Notes under the pieces: generated by a model
Databases searched by the model: none
What the model saw: only the letters and a program-made list of their open reading frames with translations
What the model was told of the DNA's origin: nothing
Assembly: GCA_002951815.1 (NCBI GenBank)
Contig: CP019454.1
Coordinates: 2,480,001 to 2,544,000 of the forward strand
From: Sulfobacillus thermotolerans
GTDB taxonomy: Bacteria > Bacillota > Sulfobacillia > Sulfobacillales > Sulfobacillaceae
Length of the DNA: 64,000 nucleotides
Reading direction: 5' to 3'
Translations under genes and position numbers: made by a program
Shown: positions 15,192 to 22,715 of the stretch, in pieces
Numbering within the stretch: the first letter of the stretch is position 1
Layout of the letters: the number at the start of each line of letters is the position of its first letter

Positions 15192-15671
15192 GTCTTAGGA
15201 GAACCTCACCTTGTTGGACTGTGGTTTGGGATGGCATTGATCGACGGCACATATGGATAAGGCGCCCGAGTGGAGTCCGCGCTTAACCCCTTCAATAGGT
15301 GCAAAATTCCCCAATCTCCGATTCTGCAGAAGCCAAATAGTCTTTGTGGGTTGGCACCCCACGGTCTTTCGAAACCGGCCACCGGCCGGACCATGACCTT
15401 AATCACTGGTCCGATTTCGATCTAACAGTGAAATTCCTGACATGTACAAGTCAATGAATCCCATCCAAACTTCGGGCACACGGCTGATCTCTCCATGCTA
15501 AGGAGACCAGCCGTTTGGCATGGAAATAATTTTTTACGGCATTTTTACGGTTTTTTTACTACAAAGCCCTGAGGCGCGGTCTTATATTGGGTAGCGCACG
15601 TGGAACAACGTGAAGAGCTTAGTATCCGAATAAACGGTCTGAAAAACGGTGGCAAGAAATGGAGGTTAAAC
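15192..15671 (+). other. Long leader region before the kdp genes
   Basis: 480 bases without a supported gene. It contains a hairpin (15480-15514), two copies of TTTTTACGG about 15 bases apart near 15530-15552, and a weak TATATT (15583-15588) that could be a -10 element. KdpE binding sites usually lie in this position, but I cannot define one. Confidence 0.4.
15480..15514 (+). terminator. Hairpin upstream of kdp, possible terminator
   Basis: ACGGCTG pairs with CAGCCGT and TCTCC with GGAGA around a short internal asymmetry. A run of six T begins about 16 bases after the stem, later than in a standard terminator. It may end the hydrolase transcript or be a control element of the kdp leader. Confidence 0.35.
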
Positions 15672-15755
15672 GTGGCAACCCTGGGATTAGGACTGCTTTT
15701 TGTGGGGTTATATCTCGGAACCATTGGGCTGATGTATTGGTTTCGGAAATTATGA
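15672..15755 (+). CDS. 27-residue single-span membrane peptide upstream of kdpF
   Basis: GTG start about six bases after GGAGG. The peptide begins VATLGLGLLFVG, is one hydrophobic helix and ends with an aromatic-basic tail (MYWFRKL). It is 15 bases before the kdpF start and in the same direction. Its size and topology resemble KdpF itself, which stabilises the KdpABC complex, so it may be a second lipid-like stabilising subunit or a diverged KdpF duplicate. It does not carry the PEKF ending typical of KdpF. Real translation is supported only by the start region and context. Confidence 0.6.
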   Translation: MATLGLGLLFVGLYLGTIGLMYWFRKL

Positions 15756-15770
15756 GGGAGACGGTGTGTG

Positions 15771-15854
15771 ATGGGACATTGGGCGCTGCTGATTCTTTCG
15801 ATGGTGATTATGGTGTATCTAGTCTACGTGATTATCCATCCGGAAAAATTCTAA
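15771..15854 (+). CDS. kdpF: KdpF, small subunit of the potassium-transporting ATPase
   Basis: 27 residues: one membrane helix followed by IIHPEKF, the hallmark C-terminus of KdpF peptides. It lies 19 bases before kdpA, the standard gene order. KdpF sits at the KdpA-KdpB interface and stabilises the complex. The ATG follows GAGGGAG at slightly long distance. Gene finders usually miss it because of its size. Confidence 0.85.
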   Translation: MGHWALLILSMVIMVYLVYVIIHPEKF

Positions 15855-15873: not shown

Positions 15874-17571
15874 GTGACAGTCAGCACGATGGTAGTATGG
15901 GGAGTGGTCATTGGAGGATTGCTTCTGTCCTTAAAACCTTTAGGGACCTATATGTATAAAGTTTTTACGTTCCAACCCACGTTATTCGATCGACCGTTTA
16001 AACCGTTGGAAAATGTGATCTTCCGCCTCATCCATGTCAGTCGGGATAGTGAGATGACGGCGTTAGAATACGGGGTCTCGTTTGTGTTGATGAATATGCT
16101 TTGGGCATTGATGGCCTACACTTTATTGAGAATTCAAGGACTGTTGCCCTTCAACCCCCAACACTTTCCCAATCTCAATGCCCCACTCGCCTTCAATACC
16201 TCAGCCAGCTTTACCACCAACACAAACTGGCAAGCCTATAGCGGGGAAAATACCCTCTCCTATTTTTCTCAATTTGCCGTGTTGGAATTTTTGCAGTTTG
16301 TGACGCCTGCGAGTGGCGGTGCCGTGGGACTGGCTTTTATCCGCGGGATTACCGGCCGCAAATTAGGAAACTTCTTTGTCGACTTGACCCTGCTCTTAAC
16401 GCGGGTGTTACTGCCGTTGGCTTTGATTTTTGGGGTGGCCTTTGTCGCAGCAGGTGTACCGGATACCTTGGGACCATATCTGCACCTTCACACCTTAACG
16501 GGTCAAACCCAAATTGTTCCGCGTGGGCCGATTGCCGGCTGGGAAGCGATCGAGCATTTGGGGCAAAACGGAGGCGGATTTACGAACGCCAATAGTGCCA
16601 ACCCCCTTGAGAACCCCTCGGCATTGACCAATGTCCTACAAAGCATTGCCATGGGTCTCGTCCCGGTAGCGTTTTTCTACATGTTCGGCTTGTTCGCAGG
16701 AAAGAGGCGTCTCGCCTGGACCCTGATTGCTGTCGCTGGTACCCTGTTTTTGGCGATGTTGGCGATGATTTATTTTCCCGAAGCTTCAGGAAATCCCGTA
16801 ATCAATCTTCTAGGGTTGTCCGGCCATGGCAATTATGTCGGTACCGAATTACAACAAGGCATCGGAGGAACTTCAATCTTTGAGACCGCTTCAAACGCCT
16901 TTACGACGGGTTCCGTGTCAGCCGCCAATGACAGTTTTTTGCCTATCCCCAGTTTAGCCTTATTTCTCGGGATGTTTCTCAACATGGTTTTTGGGGGTAA
17001 AGGAGTCGGGCTCCTCAACATGCTCATGTTCGTTTTACTCACTATTTTTCTAATGGGGCTGATGGTGGGCCGTACCCCGGAATTCCTAGGCAAGAAAATT
17101 GAAGCAAAAGAAATTTCGCTGACGGCCATCGCATTCTTGATCCATCCCTTGCTGATTTTGGTGGGATCGGCGATAGCGGTCGCGACGCCTTTAGGAATGG
17201 CAGGCGTATTCAATCCCGGTCCACAAGGGCTGTCTGAAATTCTTTATGCCTTTACATCGGGGGCGGCAAACAATGGGTCTGCCTTGGGGGGATTGGGCGC
17301 ATCCCTACCGTTCTACGAAATTGCGATTGGTGTTGTGATGATTCTTGGACGCTATGCATCGGTGGTGTTGATGTTGTTAGTGGCGGAGTCGTTGTGGCAG
17401 AAGAAAGCGGTTCCGGAAACATCCGGGACTATGCACACCGATACCCCGTTATTTGCAAGCATTCTGTTAGGGGCGATTATTGTTCTCAATGCCCTCACCT
17501 TCTTTCCAATAATGGCGCTCGGCCCGCTCGCTGAACATTACCTACTGGTGACCCACCATGTTTTTTCCTAG
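15874..17571 (+). CDS. kdpA: Potassium-transporting ATPase subunit A
   Basis: A 565-residue polytopic protein of the potassium-transporter superfamily, the usual KdpA length. It has four repeated pore motifs, seen as NTNTNW-type and GQNGGGFTNANSANP and GAANNGSALGG segments that line the selectivity filter, plus about ten membrane spans. KdpA picks up external potassium with very high affinity and passes it through a tunnel to KdpB. The GTG start follows GGGAGGAAG. It is co-transcribed with kdpF, kdpB and kdpC. Expression in this family is induced by potassium limitation through KdpD/KdpE, both encoded just downstream. Confidence 0.97.
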   Translation: MTVSTMVVWGVVIGGLLLSLKPLGTYMYKVFTFQPTLFDRPFKPLENVIFRLIHVSRDSEMTALEYGVSFVLMNMLWALMAYTLLRIQGLLPFNPQHFPNLNAPLAFNTSASFTTNTNWQAYSGENTLSYFSQFAVLEFLQFVTPASGGAVGLAFIRGITGRKLGNFFVDLTLLLTRVLLPLALIFGVAFVAAGVPDTLGPYLHLHTLTGQTQIVPRGPIAGWEAIEHLGQNGGGFTNANSANPLENPSALTNVLQSIAMGLVPVAFFYMFGLFAGKRRLAWTLIAVAGTLFLAMLAMIYFPEASGNPVINLLGLSGHGNYVGTELQQGIGGTSIFETASNAFTTGSVSAANDSFLPIPSLALFLGMFLNMVFGGKGVGLLNMLMFVLLTIFLMGLMVGRTPEFLGKKIEAKEISLTAIAFLIHPLLILVGSAIAVATPLGMAGVFNPGPQGLSEILYAFTSGAANNGSALGGLGASLPFYEIAIGVVMILGRYASVVLMLLVAESLWQKKAVPETSGTMHTDTPLFASILLGAIIVLNALTFFPIMALGPLAEHYLLVTHHVFS

Positions 17572-17601
17572 CGAACAGGGCCTAATGAGGAGGAGTTTTT
17601 G

Positions 17602-19626
17602 ATGGACAATACCATTCGTACGCAACCCGCCGCATCTCGGCCATCACGCTTTGGGGAGCTTGTGCGTGATACCCTTGTGAAGTTAGACCCCCGAGCCATG
17701 GTGCATAACCCCGTGATGTTTGTCGTGGAAGTGGGGACGGCAGTGACCCTATGGCTGACCATGTTTTCCTCCCCAGGACCACAGCGAGCCTATGACGGAT
17801 TAGTCACAGCCATCTTGGTAATGACGCTTTTGTTTGCCACCTTCGCGGAAGCTTATGCGGAATCACGAGGGCGAGCGCAAGCGGACTTTTTGCGGCAAAG
17901 TCGTGCGACGGCTCAAGCACGAGTTGTGCAGGGCGATGGAACCTGGGAATGGACCGAAGGCACGGCCTTGCAACGGGGTATGCGCATTCGCATCGAAGCC
18001 GGTGATGTCGTTCCAGGAGATGGCGTCGTACTCGAAGGAGTCGGCGCGATGGATGAATCAGCCATTACCGGAGAATCGGCATCCGTCATCAAATCGCCTG
18101 GTGACAGTGTGACGGCGGGCACTGCATTGTTATCCGACACGTTATTGGTGGAAATTACCGCCGAAGCCGGGCAAACGTTTTTGGACCGAATGATCGCATT
18201 GGTAGAAGGGGCTGAGCGTCAGAAAACCCCCAATGAAATCGCGTTGTCTGCCCTATTAGGGGTGTTAACGTTAATATTTGTGCTGGTTGTCGTTACGCTC
18301 GGCCCTATCACGTTATATTACGGAAAACATGTGGTCAATATCACCACCTTAGTCGCGTTATTGGTGTGTCTCATTCCGACGACTATTGGCGCTCTACTGT
18401 CAGCTATCGGGATCGCGGGGATGAACCGGGTCGCCAAAATTCATGTGGTCGCCAAAAGTGGTCGTGCTGTTGAAGTCTGTGGCGATATAGATACGTTAAT
18501 TTTGGATAAGACAGGGACGATCACAATGGGAAACCGCATGGCTACCGAGTTCTTGCCGGTGCCGGGTGTCTCGTTGGAAGAACTGGCAGAGATAGCATGG
18601 ATGGCTTCGGATACGGATACGACGCCAGAAGGGCGCTCGGTTGTTGAACTTGCCCAGCATATTTTACAGCGTACACAGGCCTTGGCGTTTTCAGGAGAGT
18701 CGGTGCCGTTTTCGGCGAATACCCGAATGAGTGGCGTCGACTTAGCAGATGGACGCCGTGTTCGCAAAGGCGCGGTGGATGCCATCGTTAAAATGGTTGG
18801 GCAGGCACCTACGGCCTTGGAAGAGGCCGCAGAACGCGTGGCCCGTGCTGGCGGTACGCCGCTGGCTGTGGCCGTCGATAATCGGGCTTTAGGCATTATT
18901 CGTCTTAAAGACGTGGTCAAACCGGGGCTAAAAGAGCGGTTTGCTAATTTTCGGGCTATGGGTATCCGCACGGTGATGGCAACGGGCGACAATCCCATTA
19001 CCGCACGGGTCATTGCAGACGAAGCCGGCATTGATGAGGTATTAGCGGAGGTGACGCCCGAAGGGAAACTGGCACTAATCCAAAAGGAGCAAAGCCAAGG
19101 TAAGTTGGTGGCTATGACCGGAGACGGGACGAATGATGCCCCGGCGTTGGCCCAAGCCGACGTAGGATTAGCTATGGGTGTGGGAACAATGGCCGCCAAA
19201 GAGGCTGGAAATATGGTTGACCTTGATTCCAATCCGACGAAACTGTTGGACGTCGTAGAAGTCGGGAAGCAACTCTTAATTACCCGAGGAGCACTGACGA
19301 CCTTTTCGATTTCCAATGATGTTGCCAAATATTTTGCGATTGTCCCCGCGATGTTTGCCGGAGTGCCGCTGTTACATGGCTTGTCGGCTTTGAATATTAT
19401 GGACCTTAAAACGCCGCAAGGCGCTATTTTGTCGGCATTAATTTTTAATGCGCTCATCATCCCCGCATTGATTCCCTTTGCCGTGCGCGGCGTGAAGTAT
19501 CGGCCCCAATCCGCCGACCGACTGCTCTTACGCAACATCTTTAACTGGGGCGTCATCGGGGTCATTATTCCCTTTGTGGGGATTTGGGGCATCGACCATG
19601 TCTTGGGATTATTTGGGTTGGCCTAA
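17602..19626 (+). CDS. kdpB: Potassium-transporting ATPase ATP-binding subunit B
   Basis: A 674-residue P-type ATPase of the Kdp class. Actuator motif ITGESASVI, phosphorylation motif DKTGTITMGN with the acylated aspartate at residue 302, and hinge motif TGDGTNDAPALAQADVGLAM are all intact. A membrane segment with VCLIPTTIGALLSAIG carries the canonical KdpB proline. KdpB hydrolyses ATP to drive potassium moved through KdpA. The ATG at 17602 is seven bases after GAGGAGGAG; a TTG one codon earlier is less likely. It follows kdpA by 30 bases and precedes kdpC by 23. Confidence 0.97.
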   Translation: MDNTIRTQPAASRPSRFGELVRDTLVKLDPRAMVHNPVMFVVEVGTAVTLWLTMFSSPGPQRAYDGLVTAILVMTLLFATFAEAYAESRGRAQADFLRQSRATAQARVVQGDGTWEWTEGTALQRGMRIRIEAGDVVPGDGVVLEGVGAMDESAITGESASVIKSPGDSVTAGTALLSDTLLVEITAEAGQTFLDRMIALVEGAERQKTPNEIALSALLGVLTLIFVLVVVTLGPITLYYGKHVVNITTLVALLVCLIPTTIGALLSAIGIAGMNRVAKIHVVAKSGRAVEVCGDIDTLILDKTGTITMGNRMATEFLPVPGVSLEELAEIAWMASDTDTTPEGRSVVELAQHILQRTQALAFSGESVPFSANTRMSGVDLADGRRVRKGAVDAIVKMVGQAPTALEEAAERVARAGGTPLAVAVDNRALGIIRLKDVVKPGLKERFANFRAMGIRTVMATGDNPITARVIADEAGIDEVLAEVTPEGKLALIQKEQSQGKLVAMTGDGTNDAPALAQADVGLAMGVGTMAAKEAGNMVDLDSNPTKLLDVVEVGKQLLITRGALTTFSISNDVAKYFAIVPAMFAGVPLLHGLSALNIMDLKTPQGAILSALIFNALIIPALIPFAVRGVKYRPQSADRLLLRNIFNWGVIGVIIPFVGIWGIDHVLGLFGLA

Positions 19627-19649: not shown

Positions 19650-20261
19650 ATGGGTCAGACCATGAAGCGTGCAGCCTTATTGACCGTGATATTATGGGCT
19701 CTATTAGGATTAGGATTTCCCTTGGTGATGGTCGGCATAGGCCAGTTGTTCTTTCCCTGGCAAGCCAATGGGAGCGTGATTACTGTCCAAGGGCGTCCGG
19801 TGGCAGCACGGCATGTCGGCCAATATTTTGGGAACACGCTGCAATATTTTTGGGGTCGGCCATCAGATACCACGTCAATTACCACAGGCAAACTTCAGCC
19901 GTATAATGCGTTTAATTCGGGGCCAAGCAATTATGGACCGACGAATGCCGCCTTATTGCACGATGTGAAGGTGCGTGTCCGTGAATATTTGCAGACCACC
20001 CCAGGACTCAAAGCGTCGCAGATTCCGCTTAGCCTGGTCGAGAGCTCAGGCTCAGGATTAGATCCGGATATCACGGTGCAAAGTGCGTTCATTCAAATTC
20101 CACGCATCGCCAAGCATACGGGTCTTAGCGTCACAACCCTGACACGGCTCGTGGAGTCTCACATATTGCCTCCGGAGCTTGGGATATTCGGCCCCCGGCG
20201 CATTAATGTCGTATTACTCAATGTGGCCCTCACGGCATTAATCCATAAACACGAGTCATGA
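19650..20261 (+). CDS. kdpC: Potassium-transporting ATPase subunit C
   Basis: 203 residues: an N-terminal membrane helix (LLTVILWALLGLGFPLVMVG) and an extracytoplasmic domain with the conserved YFWGRPS, GPSNYGPTN and SSGSGLDPDI motifs. KdpC sits beside KdpA on the outer face and is needed for assembly and high potassium affinity. The ATG is six bases after AGAGGAGGG. The reading frame is open further upstream, but only this start gives the normal length and signal-anchor. Confidence 0.96.
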   Translation: MGQTMKRAALLTVILWALLGLGFPLVMVGIGQLFFPWQANGSVITVQGRPVAARHVGQYFGNTLQYFWGRPSDTTSITTGKLQPYNAFNSGPSNYGPTNAALLHDVKVRVREYLQTTPGLKASQIPLSLVESSGSGLDPDITVQSAFIQIPRIAKHTGLSVTTLTRLVESHILPPELGIFGPRRINVVLLNVALTALIHKHES

Positions 20262-20419: not shown

Positions 20420-22045
20420 ATGCGTAAGCAGCGACTGGTAGCGAATATGAAGCCCAAGTGGCGGGTACTTCCCCGTCATTGGTTGGAATGGGCAGACTTA
20501 CGAACGTTTCACCACACAGGGTCATGGCGAGGCTATGTCATGGCGACGGGACTTGTTGCCATGCTGACGATGGGCCTTTGGTTGGGAAGGGAAGCGTTAG
20601 AGCCGGTCAACATTGGCTTTCTTTATCTGCTGCCGGTGTTGTTCAGCGCGTTACGCTGGGGGTTGTGGACGGCCTTATATACGGCTTTACTCGGCGTCAT
20701 GGCGTTCGATTTCTTCTTTGTGCCTCCGATTTTCAGTTATGCCGTGAGCGACCTTCGCTATATATGGGCCTTCGCGGTGTTTTTTGTCGTGGGGGCAGTG
20801 ACCGCTACGCTGACCACGTCTTTGCAACAGCAGGCGGAGGACGCCCGCAGGCGTGCACGGGTCATCGCTTCTTTGTATGAACTGAGTCGCCGGATTGCCG
20901 CCGGGAATAATCTCCAAGAAGTGGTGGCAGCCGTCACGCATCATGTGCAAGAAACTTTGGGGGTCGCAGCGTGGGTCGTTCTTCCCGATGGATCGGGCCG
21001 TTTTCCGGGATCCCTTACTGCCTTTTTACCGCCGCGCGAGTCCTTGAATCGGGGCGTTTTGCAATGGGTCTACCAACACGGTGAGCCTGTTGGGTTTGGT
21101 CAACGGCACAAGCCGGAACTCCTCTATCTTCCCTTGAAAACTGAGGACACTATCCATGGGGTGATGTGCCTAGGTGAATATGGGCACGGTCACCAGTTCA
21201 CAGATGACGAACGTCAGATCATAGAAGCGATTACGGGATTGGCTGCGGTGTCCGTGGCACGCGTTCAATATGAGGAAGCAGCTCGCAAAGCCGATCTCAT
21301 GGCGGAGTCCGAGCGCTTGCATGCAGCGCTTCTTGACTCAATTTCCCATGAACTCAAGACGCCTTTGACCATGATCATGGGGGCGGTCGATCATTTGGTC
21401 AAGGAACGTGGCGGGCTACCAGATGACCAACGCACACTGCTTATGAATGTCCGATCGGGAGTCTGGCGTATGAACCGCGTGATCACAAATTTATTGGGTA
21501 TGGTGCGTATTGAGAGCGGGATGCTGCGACTCAACTGCCAGCCTTGTGATGCATCGGATTTAATTGGAGTCGTATTGCGCCAATTATCGGAGGTATTAAT
21601 CACGCATCCCGTATCTGTCACCATTCCTGATGATGTGAGTCCGCTTTGGGTTGATGAGATTTTAATTGAACAAGCCTTGGTGAATGTCCTGAGTAATGCT
21701 GCCAAATATTCGGCGGACGGCAGTCCTATTGAAATTGCATGCCAATCGACCGAATCCGCTATTACCATAGCCGTAAAGGACTGGGGCATAGGGATAGTGC
21801 CTGGTGAAGAGGAAAAGTTATTTCAAAAATTTTACCGCTCCTCCTCGGTGCAACACATTTCCGGAACGGGTCTTGGGCTTGCCATTTGTGACGGCATTGT
21901 CCGAGCACATGGGGGGCGAGTTGTGGCCACCCGTAATCAACCAACAGGAACGATCATGACCATAGAGTTGCCAAGAGTCTCGGAAGGGGAACCATTACGG
22001 GAAAGGGGGAGGCAAGACCATGAGCGTGGCCGCTTTGATCATTGA
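20420..22045 (+). CDS. KdpD-type sensor histidine kinase lacking the N-terminal sensory domains
   Basis: 541 residues against roughly 900 for full KdpD. Visible parts: a DUF4118 membrane module of four spans (about 40-135), a linker helix, a GAF-like domain (about 150-285), HisKA with SISHELKTPLT (phospho-accepting H310) and a HATPase domain with NVLSNAAKYS, DWGIGI and GTGLGLAI. The KdpD osmosensor domain with Walker motifs and the USP domain are absent; short KdpD-like kinases are known in other bacteria. It overlaps kdpE by 26 bases. The start is uncertain: ATG 20420 has GAGGGAG at about 14 bases, ATG 20447 has none. Confidence 0.88.
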   Translation: MRKQRLVANMKPKWRVLPRHWLEWADLRTFHHTGSWRGYVMATGLVAMLTMGLWLGREALEPVNIGFLYLLPVLFSALRWGLWTALYTALLGVMAFDFFFVPPIFSYAVSDLRYIWAFAVFFVVGAVTATLTTSLQQQAEDARRRARVIASLYELSRRIAAGNNLQEVVAAVTHHVQETLGVAAWVVLPDGSGRFPGSLTAFLPPRESLNRGVLQWVYQHGEPVGFGQRHKPELLYLPLKTEDTIHGVMCLGEYGHGHQFTDDERQIIEAITGLAAVSVARVQYEEAARKADLMAESERLHAALLDSISHELKTPLTMIMGAVDHLVKERGGLPDDQRTLLMNVRSGVWRMNRVITNLLGMVRIESGMLRLNCQPCDASDLIGVVLRQLSEVLITHPVSVTIPDDVSPLWVDEILIEQALVNVLSNAAKYSADGSPIEIACQSTESAITIAVKDWGIGIVPGEEEKLFQKFYRSSSVQHISGTGLGLAICDGIVRAHGGRVVATRNQPTGTIMTIELPRVSEGEPLRERGRQDHERGRFDH

Positions 22046-22715
22046 TGACGAAGTAGCGATTCGCCAGCTACTGCGCGTTATGCTCCATGATTTCGGCTAT
22101 ATGATTTATGAAGCGGGGACGGGTCAAGAGGGCATCACCATGGCATCGGCGCTGCATCCTGACGTCATCCTTTTAGATATTGGACTGCCCGATATGAAAG
22201 GCACGGATGTCCTTCAGCAAATTCGTCAGACATCCGCGGTGCCGATCATTATGTTGACAGTGCACGATGATCAACACCAAAAAGTTCTGGCATTAGATCA
22301 AGGAGCTGATGACTATGTCACGAAACCTTTTGGAGAACAAGAATTAATGGCGAGAATACGCGTGGCATTGCGCCACCGTCAGGTCATGTCCGCACCGACC
22401 GTGGTCCGCGTCGGCGATCTGGTTCTTGATCTTGTTCAGCATCGTGTGGAACGAACCGGTACGGTCATCCATTTAACGCCGATTGAATATGAACTTTTGC
22501 GCGTGTTAGCCATCAACGCGGGCCGGGTGGTGACGCACACCCAATTGCTACGAGAAGCATGGCATGAGGCGACCTATCAAAATGATGGCCACTATCTCCG
22601 CATTTATATTGGTCATCTCCGCAAAAAAATTGAAGCAGATCCCACACGCCCTCATTACATTATTACGGAACCCGGTGTTGGATATCGCCTCATGGAGCCT
22701 GATACAGAGGGGTAA
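22020..22715 (+). CDS. kdpE: KdpE-type response regulator (OmpR family)
   Basis: 231 residues. The receiver domain has acidic pocket D9/D10, phospho-acceptor D53 (DVILLDIGLPD) and the conserved lysine in VTKPFGEQE. The C-terminal winged helix has HLTPIEYELLRVLA and HYLRIYIGHLRKKIE, typical of OmpR/KdpE. It should activate the kdp genes when the upstream kinase signals. The ATG follows AAGGGGGAGG at good distance and overlaps the kinase 3' end, so stoichiometry is probably set by translational coupling. The KdpE assignment rests on adjacency to kdpFABC and the KdpD-like partner. Confidence 0.93.
   Translation: MSVAALIIDDEVAIRQLLRVMLHDFGYMIYEAGTGQEGITMASALHPDVILLDIGLPDMKGTDVLQQIRQTSAVPIIMLTVHDDQHQKVLALDQGADDYVTKPFGEQELMARIRVALRHRQVMSAPTVVRVGDLVLDLVQHRVERTGTVIHLTPIEYELLRVLAINAGRVVTHTQLLREAWHEATYQNDGHYLRIYIGHLRKKIEADPTRPHYIITEPGVGYRLMEPDTEG

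Follow-up and report, generated by a model that had tools for sequence, protein, structure and literature searches.

The stretch of DNA analyzed here, hereafter the window, comprises 64,000 nucleotides of the Sulfobacillus thermotolerans genome and holds a kdp operon in which a 27-codon frame, here named Z, stands ahead of kdpF, kdpA, kdpB and kdpC, with genes for a Kdp-type sensor kinase and a KdpE-like response regulator beyond them (Table 1). The kdpF frame matches TIGR02115 as well as its Pfam family (27.4 bits, against a cut-off of 26.85), and its GTG start lies 12 nt from the Z stop. The N-terminal KdpD domain was not found in the kinase at 20420-22045, which begins at DUF4118, and the genome's only PF02702 match lies elsewhere (G000:C1:1319561-1320184). 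In E. coli, this N-terminal domain of KdpD is described as a serine kinase that inhibits the pump (excerpt of PMC11018627).

Table 1. Features of the kdp operon and its leader, in window coordinates.
Feature	Position	Strand	Details
KdpE-box-like site, overlapping direct repeats TTTTTACGGCATTTTTACGGTTTTTTTAC	15531..15559	+	pattern match
Shine-Dalgarno GGAGGT of Z	15661..15666	+	5 nt before GTG; 6-base match
Z, 27-residue single-span peptide	15672..15755	+	GTG start, TGA stop
kdpF	15768..15854	+	start GTG 15768 or ATG 15771; PF09604, E 7.6e-8
kdpA	15874..17571	+	PF03814, E 3.3e-197
kdpB	17599..19626	+	E1-E2_ATPase + Hydrolase domains, between kdpA and kdpC
kdpC	19653..20261	+	PF02669, E 3.1e-59
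kdp-type sensor kinase	20420..22045	+	DUF4118, GAF, HisKA, HATPase_c
kdpE-like response regulator	22020..22715	+	Response_reg + Trans_reg_C

An earlier, sequence-only reading of this DNA had pointed to a 27-residue, single-span frame with a good ribosome binding site before kdpF, alike to KdpF in size and topology and distinguished by an aromatic-basic C-terminus, and this description holds for the window. The frame translates as V(M)ATLGLGLLFVGLYLGTIGLMYWFRKL up to its stop codon, shares with KdpF its length and its single hydrophobic span, and ends in YWFRKL. In the nearest relative, whose kdpA is 88% identical, a 1-base difference or gap near the 3' end of Z yields another ending, MRVLQKSIEGR. 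The frame is open further back, to a GTG at 15600 that would give 51 aa; since similarity to relatives begins at 15672, with M aligned on M and without gaps, GTG 15672 is the likely start of Z rather than GTG 15600.

The putative KdpE box upstream of Z consists of overlapping TTTTTAC direct repeats and is similar to the E. coli KdpE site, CATTTTTATACTTTTTTTACACC, given in a passage of PMC3264566. Its pattern matches twice in the 64 kb, against 0.04 matches expected, and the nearest relative has a box as well. In its fixed form the pattern occurs in 27 of 168 kdp leaders. Twenty of these have Z according to the first profile, and in all of them the box precedes Z, by 95-152 nt, with no instance in the interval from Z to kdpA; 92 of the 112 Z-bearing leaders hold no match to the pattern. 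Box leaders in which the first profile finds no Z have the box 98, 100 and 101 nt before kdpF (L150, L078 and L170, respectively) or, in L072 and L070, 452 and 497 nt before it, and L049 has a box with neither Z nor kdpF there. The box of L116, where a later profile scan finds Z, is 214 nt before kdpF, and that of E. coli K-12, which has no Z, is 101 nt upstream of kdpF. Thus, where the box is visible, and if it is used as its sequence suggests, Z would be the first gene of the regulated transcript. No sigma-70-like promoter was found in the window leader. Just upstream of the box, at 15480-15514, there is an inverted repeat (ACGGCTG..CTCC / GGAG..CAGCCGT), where the alignment with the nearest relative shows a different sequence.

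The Z reading frame codes for a peptide under purifying selection. Pooled over 15 hand-picked pairs of related sequences, pN/pS is 0.29 in frame and 0.81 and 2.11 in the two shifted frames; 15 pairs of Z from other phyla give 0.36 in frame versus 1.11 and 1.61 shifted, and KdpF from the same operons gives 0.22 (27 pairs). Between the window and its nearest relative, Z codons 2-22 differ by 12 synonymous and 7 non-synonymous changes; the expected synonymous share is 29% (binomial p 0.002). Further, when the window was scanned in six frames with a profile built from the 45 Zs of loci L002-L065, the window's own Z being excluded from the profile, Z came first among 1951 segments (23.2 bits, E 4.8e-6), and the runner-up reached 8.0 bits. 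The sequence-only reading had staked its proposal on a frame conserved in relatives and on a synonymous pattern of change among them, and both are present. A functionless chance open frame might be suspected, given the shortness of Z and its lack of a match to any named family; its in-frame conservation, both across relatives and in distant genomes, leaves this explanation a vanishingly small probability, and we reject it.

Z is a widespread and mostly unannotated family that stands beside KdpF in kdp operons of several phyla. In the window's own genome, the family is found at both kdp operons (E 3.5e-9 and 1.4e-6), and the sole further match of the genome-wide search (E 0.048) falls inside a long frame. 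Within the same bacterial family, 34 of 35 type-1 operons carry a Z 5' of kdpF, type 1 being defined by a kdpA at least 60% identical to that of the window and counted only for loci with upstream DNA; this set includes the second kdp operon of the window's genome, a locus at the threshold (L028), a locus without Z (L023) and some near copies. Across 101 relatives, a Z profile constructed mostly from these same genomes gives 48 matches, 45 of them with E <= 1.2e-5. Of these strong matches, 44 adjoin kdpA and the other sits on another contig of a fragmented assembly; the three weaker matches (E 8.9e-4 to 6.3e-3) fall within long frames. When 299 genomes of the phylum were searched with profile A4, which comprises 35 rows from the named-genome kdpA loci plus three of the window's phylum (L052, L074, L084), 8 matches were obtained: five lie at kdp operons, three of these being sequences already in A4, and the other three (E 0.001 to 0.005) come from genomes in which no kdpA was matched.

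Z was also sought at 80 named-genome kdpA loci, which are the best 80 of at least 585 matches to a single query and an uneven sample of bacteria, and was found within 600 nt upstream of kdpA in 70 of them; between -1500 and +6500 these same loci hold one other profile match (11.1 bits, L156). Bearers of Z among these best 80 of at least 585 include Alpha- and Betaproteobacteria, a Nevskia, Acidobacteria, Chloroflexi and Myxococcus, together with single genomes titled Gemmatimonadetes, Planctomycetaceae, Melainabacteria, Coriobacteriia and Binatia. The 10 loci of the same sample at which Z was not found belong to Desulfosporosinus, Ignavibacteriae, Corallococcus, an uncultured bacterium, Pantoea, Enterobacter, Kapaibacterium and three Bacteroidetes-type genomes. 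Plasmid records of Deinococcus radiodurans, Rhizobium etli, Azospirillum, Acidiphilium and Mycetohabitans carry Z, and one of Listeria innocua gives a weak match (9.0 bits); no Z match was found in plasmid records of Rhodococcus, Halobacterium, two cyanobacteria, Lactiplantibacillus and Niallia. In E. coli K-12 and one divergent E. coli, kdpF is present and Z was not found (best score 3.3 bits). A tblastn search of plasmids with one 27-residue Z, a query too short to be suitable, returned nothing.

Across the 160 places of a KdpA tree, Z is present in 120 of the 158 uncut places, one of these (L133_2) being doubtful, and its presence amounts to 10 changes whose direction is left unspecified. 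The sequence-only reading had called Z an extra peptide; it is no peculiarity of this genome, and on the tree presence of Z is the commoner state. Loci L185 and L186, cut by contig ends, were set aside, and L019 and L029 were excluded for missing upstream DNA; some loci are near copies (for example L008/L009, L037/L038, L181/L182 and L184/L187). The profile misses Z-like frames in L041, L042, L088 and L090, of which L088 and L090 are scored as Z-less. Profile seeds were chosen by eye from loci that were afterwards scanned again, and members already found went into the later profiles and into alignments A3 and A4, so that these members match by construction. The leave-out test is the six-frame scan of the window described above; the informative outcome of rescanning kdpA loci and relatives is the near absence of Z matches elsewhere.

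The family has largely escaped annotation. No gene is annotated at Z in D. radiodurans, R. etli, Azospirillum, A. cryptum and L. innocua, and the Z of Mycetohabitans is annotated as 'potassium ABC transporter ATPase'; Z is thus unannotated in 5 of the 6 annotated plasmid stretches with Z that were viewed. Among the 40 plasmid records listed of 385 matched, an extra hypothetical protein, possibly Z, appears besides kdpF and kdpA in two; the gene table concerned is incomplete.

Members of the family are mostly 26-28 residues long with one span and, as in the window, are encoded directly 5' of kdpF by frames of 26 to about 30 codons. In a profile-profile comparison, the Zs of the window's clade match those of other genomes with 93.9% probability over 27 ungapped columns, with a score of 28.1 against a maximum of 13.0 among 150 column-shuffled decoys; when the three same-phylum rows are left out, the probability is 94.0% and the score 26.6, against at most 12.9 among 100 shuffled decoys. 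Conserved positions are D3, F14, Y20, C24, [DE]25 and [RK]26. The window's Z has T3, Y14, R25 and K26, such that of D3, F14, [DE]25 and [RK]26 one is kept, one is replaced conservatively (Y14) and two are changed. Against a non-Bacillota profile this Z alone scores 4.7 bits, which 84 of 2380 shuffled peptides equal, and about eight of its relatives score 15-30 bits; given its low score and its single retained residue of those four, the window's Z is linked to other phyla via these relatives. No significantly conserved helical face was detected in Z (p 0.68, 0.056 and 0.34). Searches of Pfam, NCBIfam, PHROGs and PDB gave nothing convincing for the family, only scattered matches in one or two members, the best being to NapE (E 4.6e-4) in 1 of 33; the window's Z matches 0 Pfam or NCBIfam families, while the neighboring kdpF matches both.

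Z and kdpF keep close company. Of 168 leaders, 112 have both, 38 have kdpF without Z, and none has Z without kdpF. In one clade, which belongs to a second kdp type with KdpA about 45% identical, the order is kdpA-kdpB-kdpC-Z-kdpF in 10 operons with 8 distinct Z peptides (L176-L184, L187), and two further operons of the clade are truncated at contig ends; upstream of kdpA, this second type gave no match to Z or KdpF. The order indicates that Z and kdpF moved as a unit. A 3' label at L133_2 probably marks the 5' Z of the next operon, leaving 10 true 3' operons. Two loci, L176 and L179, have the two kdp operon types in tandem within single genomes (G016 and G036). A link between Z and the tail type of KdpF is strong in raw counts, with Z in 117 of 132 cases of P[ED]-ended KdpF and in 3 of 22 of the AE type, and fails on independent pairs; it is therefore not counted as evidence. 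Natural fusion of Z to KdpF was considered for the long KdpF proteins of cyanobacteria (L192, L193) and rejected, as no Z match was found in them. These proteins have 83-90 residues, their genes lie between kdpB and kdpC (L192:9155-9406, L193:8437-8709), and their N-terminal half resembles a signal peptide or anchor. In Bradyrhizobium (L112, L115, L134, L149), a third small hydrophobic frame lies between kdpF and kdpA, at about -175 to -37 relative to kdpA.

Several accounts of this pairing compete. One is that Z is a duplicated and diverged copy of KdpF, redundant in function. KdpF (PF09604, TIGR02115) and Z share length, a single span, an operon and adjoining genes, and six operons in four genomes have two tandem Zs, all of which would suit duplication. 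The two are, however, separate families by profile comparison, which gives 5.9% and 14.1% probability for Z versus KdpF, far below the value for Z versus Z of distant genomes, and their conserved residues differ, Z keeping D3, F14, [DE]25 and [RK]26 and lacking the KdpF motif YL..AL..PE[KR]F. On these grounds we reject duplication as decidedly improbable. The tandem Zs before kdpF differ from one another (L004, L005, L006, L007, L032, L033), and the upstream member has an SR...NFFRRY-like sequence. Alternatively, Z might be a leader peptide or attenuator whose translation controls kdpF-kdpABC and whose sequence is otherwise irrelevant. This would fit the window, where Z is 5' of the genes concerned, and the fact that, there and in the 20 box leaders, it is the first frame after the KdpE-like box; the next start is also close in most cases, at a distance of 3-30 nt or with an overlap of a few bases. 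Nevertheless, Z is not always 5' of the regulated genes, as the clade with the pair downstream of kdpC attests, its protein sequence is under purifying selection, and it has no run of one special codon. Nor does the window leader hold a terminator-like hairpin by pattern, an Rfam match or a riboswitch, and its fold is not unusual (z -0.57). Relocation together with KdpF and selection on the peptide itself thus make a leader peptide very unlikely indeed, with a chance we would put even lower than that of duplication.

A more serious contender makes Z a small protein that regulates KdpD, or else a quality-control peptide reporting pump synthesis, rather than a component of the pump. Small membrane peptides can act on sensor kinases, and mycobacterial KdpF has been proposed to be regulatory towards KdpD (both in a passage of PMC3618439). 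Against this, relocated Z pairs with kdpF and not with kdpD, and Z is retained in the plasmid kdpABC clusters of Acidiphilium (L198) and Mycetohabitans (L199), within whose 4.5-kb flanks no kdpDE is annotated; the latter argues for the pump rather than the sensor kinase as the site of action. We regard a regulator of KdpD as unlikely, albeit the least unlikely of the rivals. The sequence-only reading had left the choice open in proposing a new Kdp subunit or regulator. 'Subunit or regulator' stands as the best reading, since Z keeps its place next to kdpF even where both genes follow kdpC; 'new' may not wholly apply in view of kdpZ, which is discussed below.

From the comparisons assembled here, we consider it probable that Z is a partner of KdpF, serving as a second accessory subunit with a single span. 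Such a subunit would insert parallel to KdpF with its acidic N-terminus outside, would be lodged together with KdpF at the membrane portion of KdpA-KdpB and may stabilize or tune the pump, as KdpF does in E. coli. Residues 2-5 of Z carry a net charge of -1 or -2 in 64 of 71 aligned members, and at least one K or R is found among the last five residues in 65 of 71, usually with an acidic neighbor; since the C-terminal end usually has one acidic and one basic residue, the charges alone weakly suggest that Z lies with its N-terminus outside and its C-terminus inside. Whatever its contribution, Z is evolutionarily dispensable, being undetected in 38 of the 158 uncut places and missing in E. coli K-12.

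The family may already possess a gene name. Treuner-Lange, in 1997, is said to have described kdpZ as a small hydrophobic peptide, and Schleussinger, in 2006, reportedly found kdpZ in Alicyclobacillus. A Clostridium acetobutylicum operon kdpZYABCXDE (Treuner-Lange 1997) is quoted in an excerpt of PMC5401905, the only relevant mention that our literature search for additional small Kdp peptides returned. There, kdpZ precedes the presumed kdpF equivalent and kdpA, as Z does, and, judged from gene order, it may be the same as Z. For Caulobacter, a passage of PMC8552747 reports that kdpA is preceded by a kdpF missing from the annotation, and no additional peptide is mentioned there. Within the searchable literature, therefore, the family seems to have been noted as a gene and to be uncharacterized.

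Small single-helix subunits are familiar elsewhere. Phospholamban, sarcolipin and the gamma subunit are such proteins on P-type ATPases (excerpt of PMC10654040), and the likeness of these animal subunits to Z is one of analogy only. CydX, CydY and CydZ resemble Z in that each is a small protein with one helix whose gene lies in the operon for a membrane complex, cytochrome bd; the subtypes of that operon carry different small-protein families (passage of PMC4325964). The role we propose for Z would be akin to that supposed for CydX, CydY and CydZ beside cytochrome bd. CydX nevertheless belongs to a different complex and has a mutant phenotype, whereas Z is known from sequence alone.

Kdp is a model P-type ATPase and, to our knowledge, its structures and reconstitutions are all of the four-subunit complex of E. 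coli. As a conjecture, Z might take a position such as that which, in the E. coli structure, is occupied by a lipid reported at the KdpA-KdpB interface. By extension, the ancestral pump may have comprised Z together with KdpF, KdpA, KdpB and KdpC, in which case E. coli KdpFABC would be a reduced form with the interface lipid filling the place of Z; this we offer as a tentative possibility, which is on balance rather doubtful. In practical terms, gene-based expression or proteomic work cannot see Z in species where no gene is annotated there, and kdp clusters of other bacteria cloned from the annotated kdpF onward would lack it. More broadly, if Z is indeed a subunit, then most Kdp systems in the sampled loci hold a component that is missing from the E. 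coli picture.
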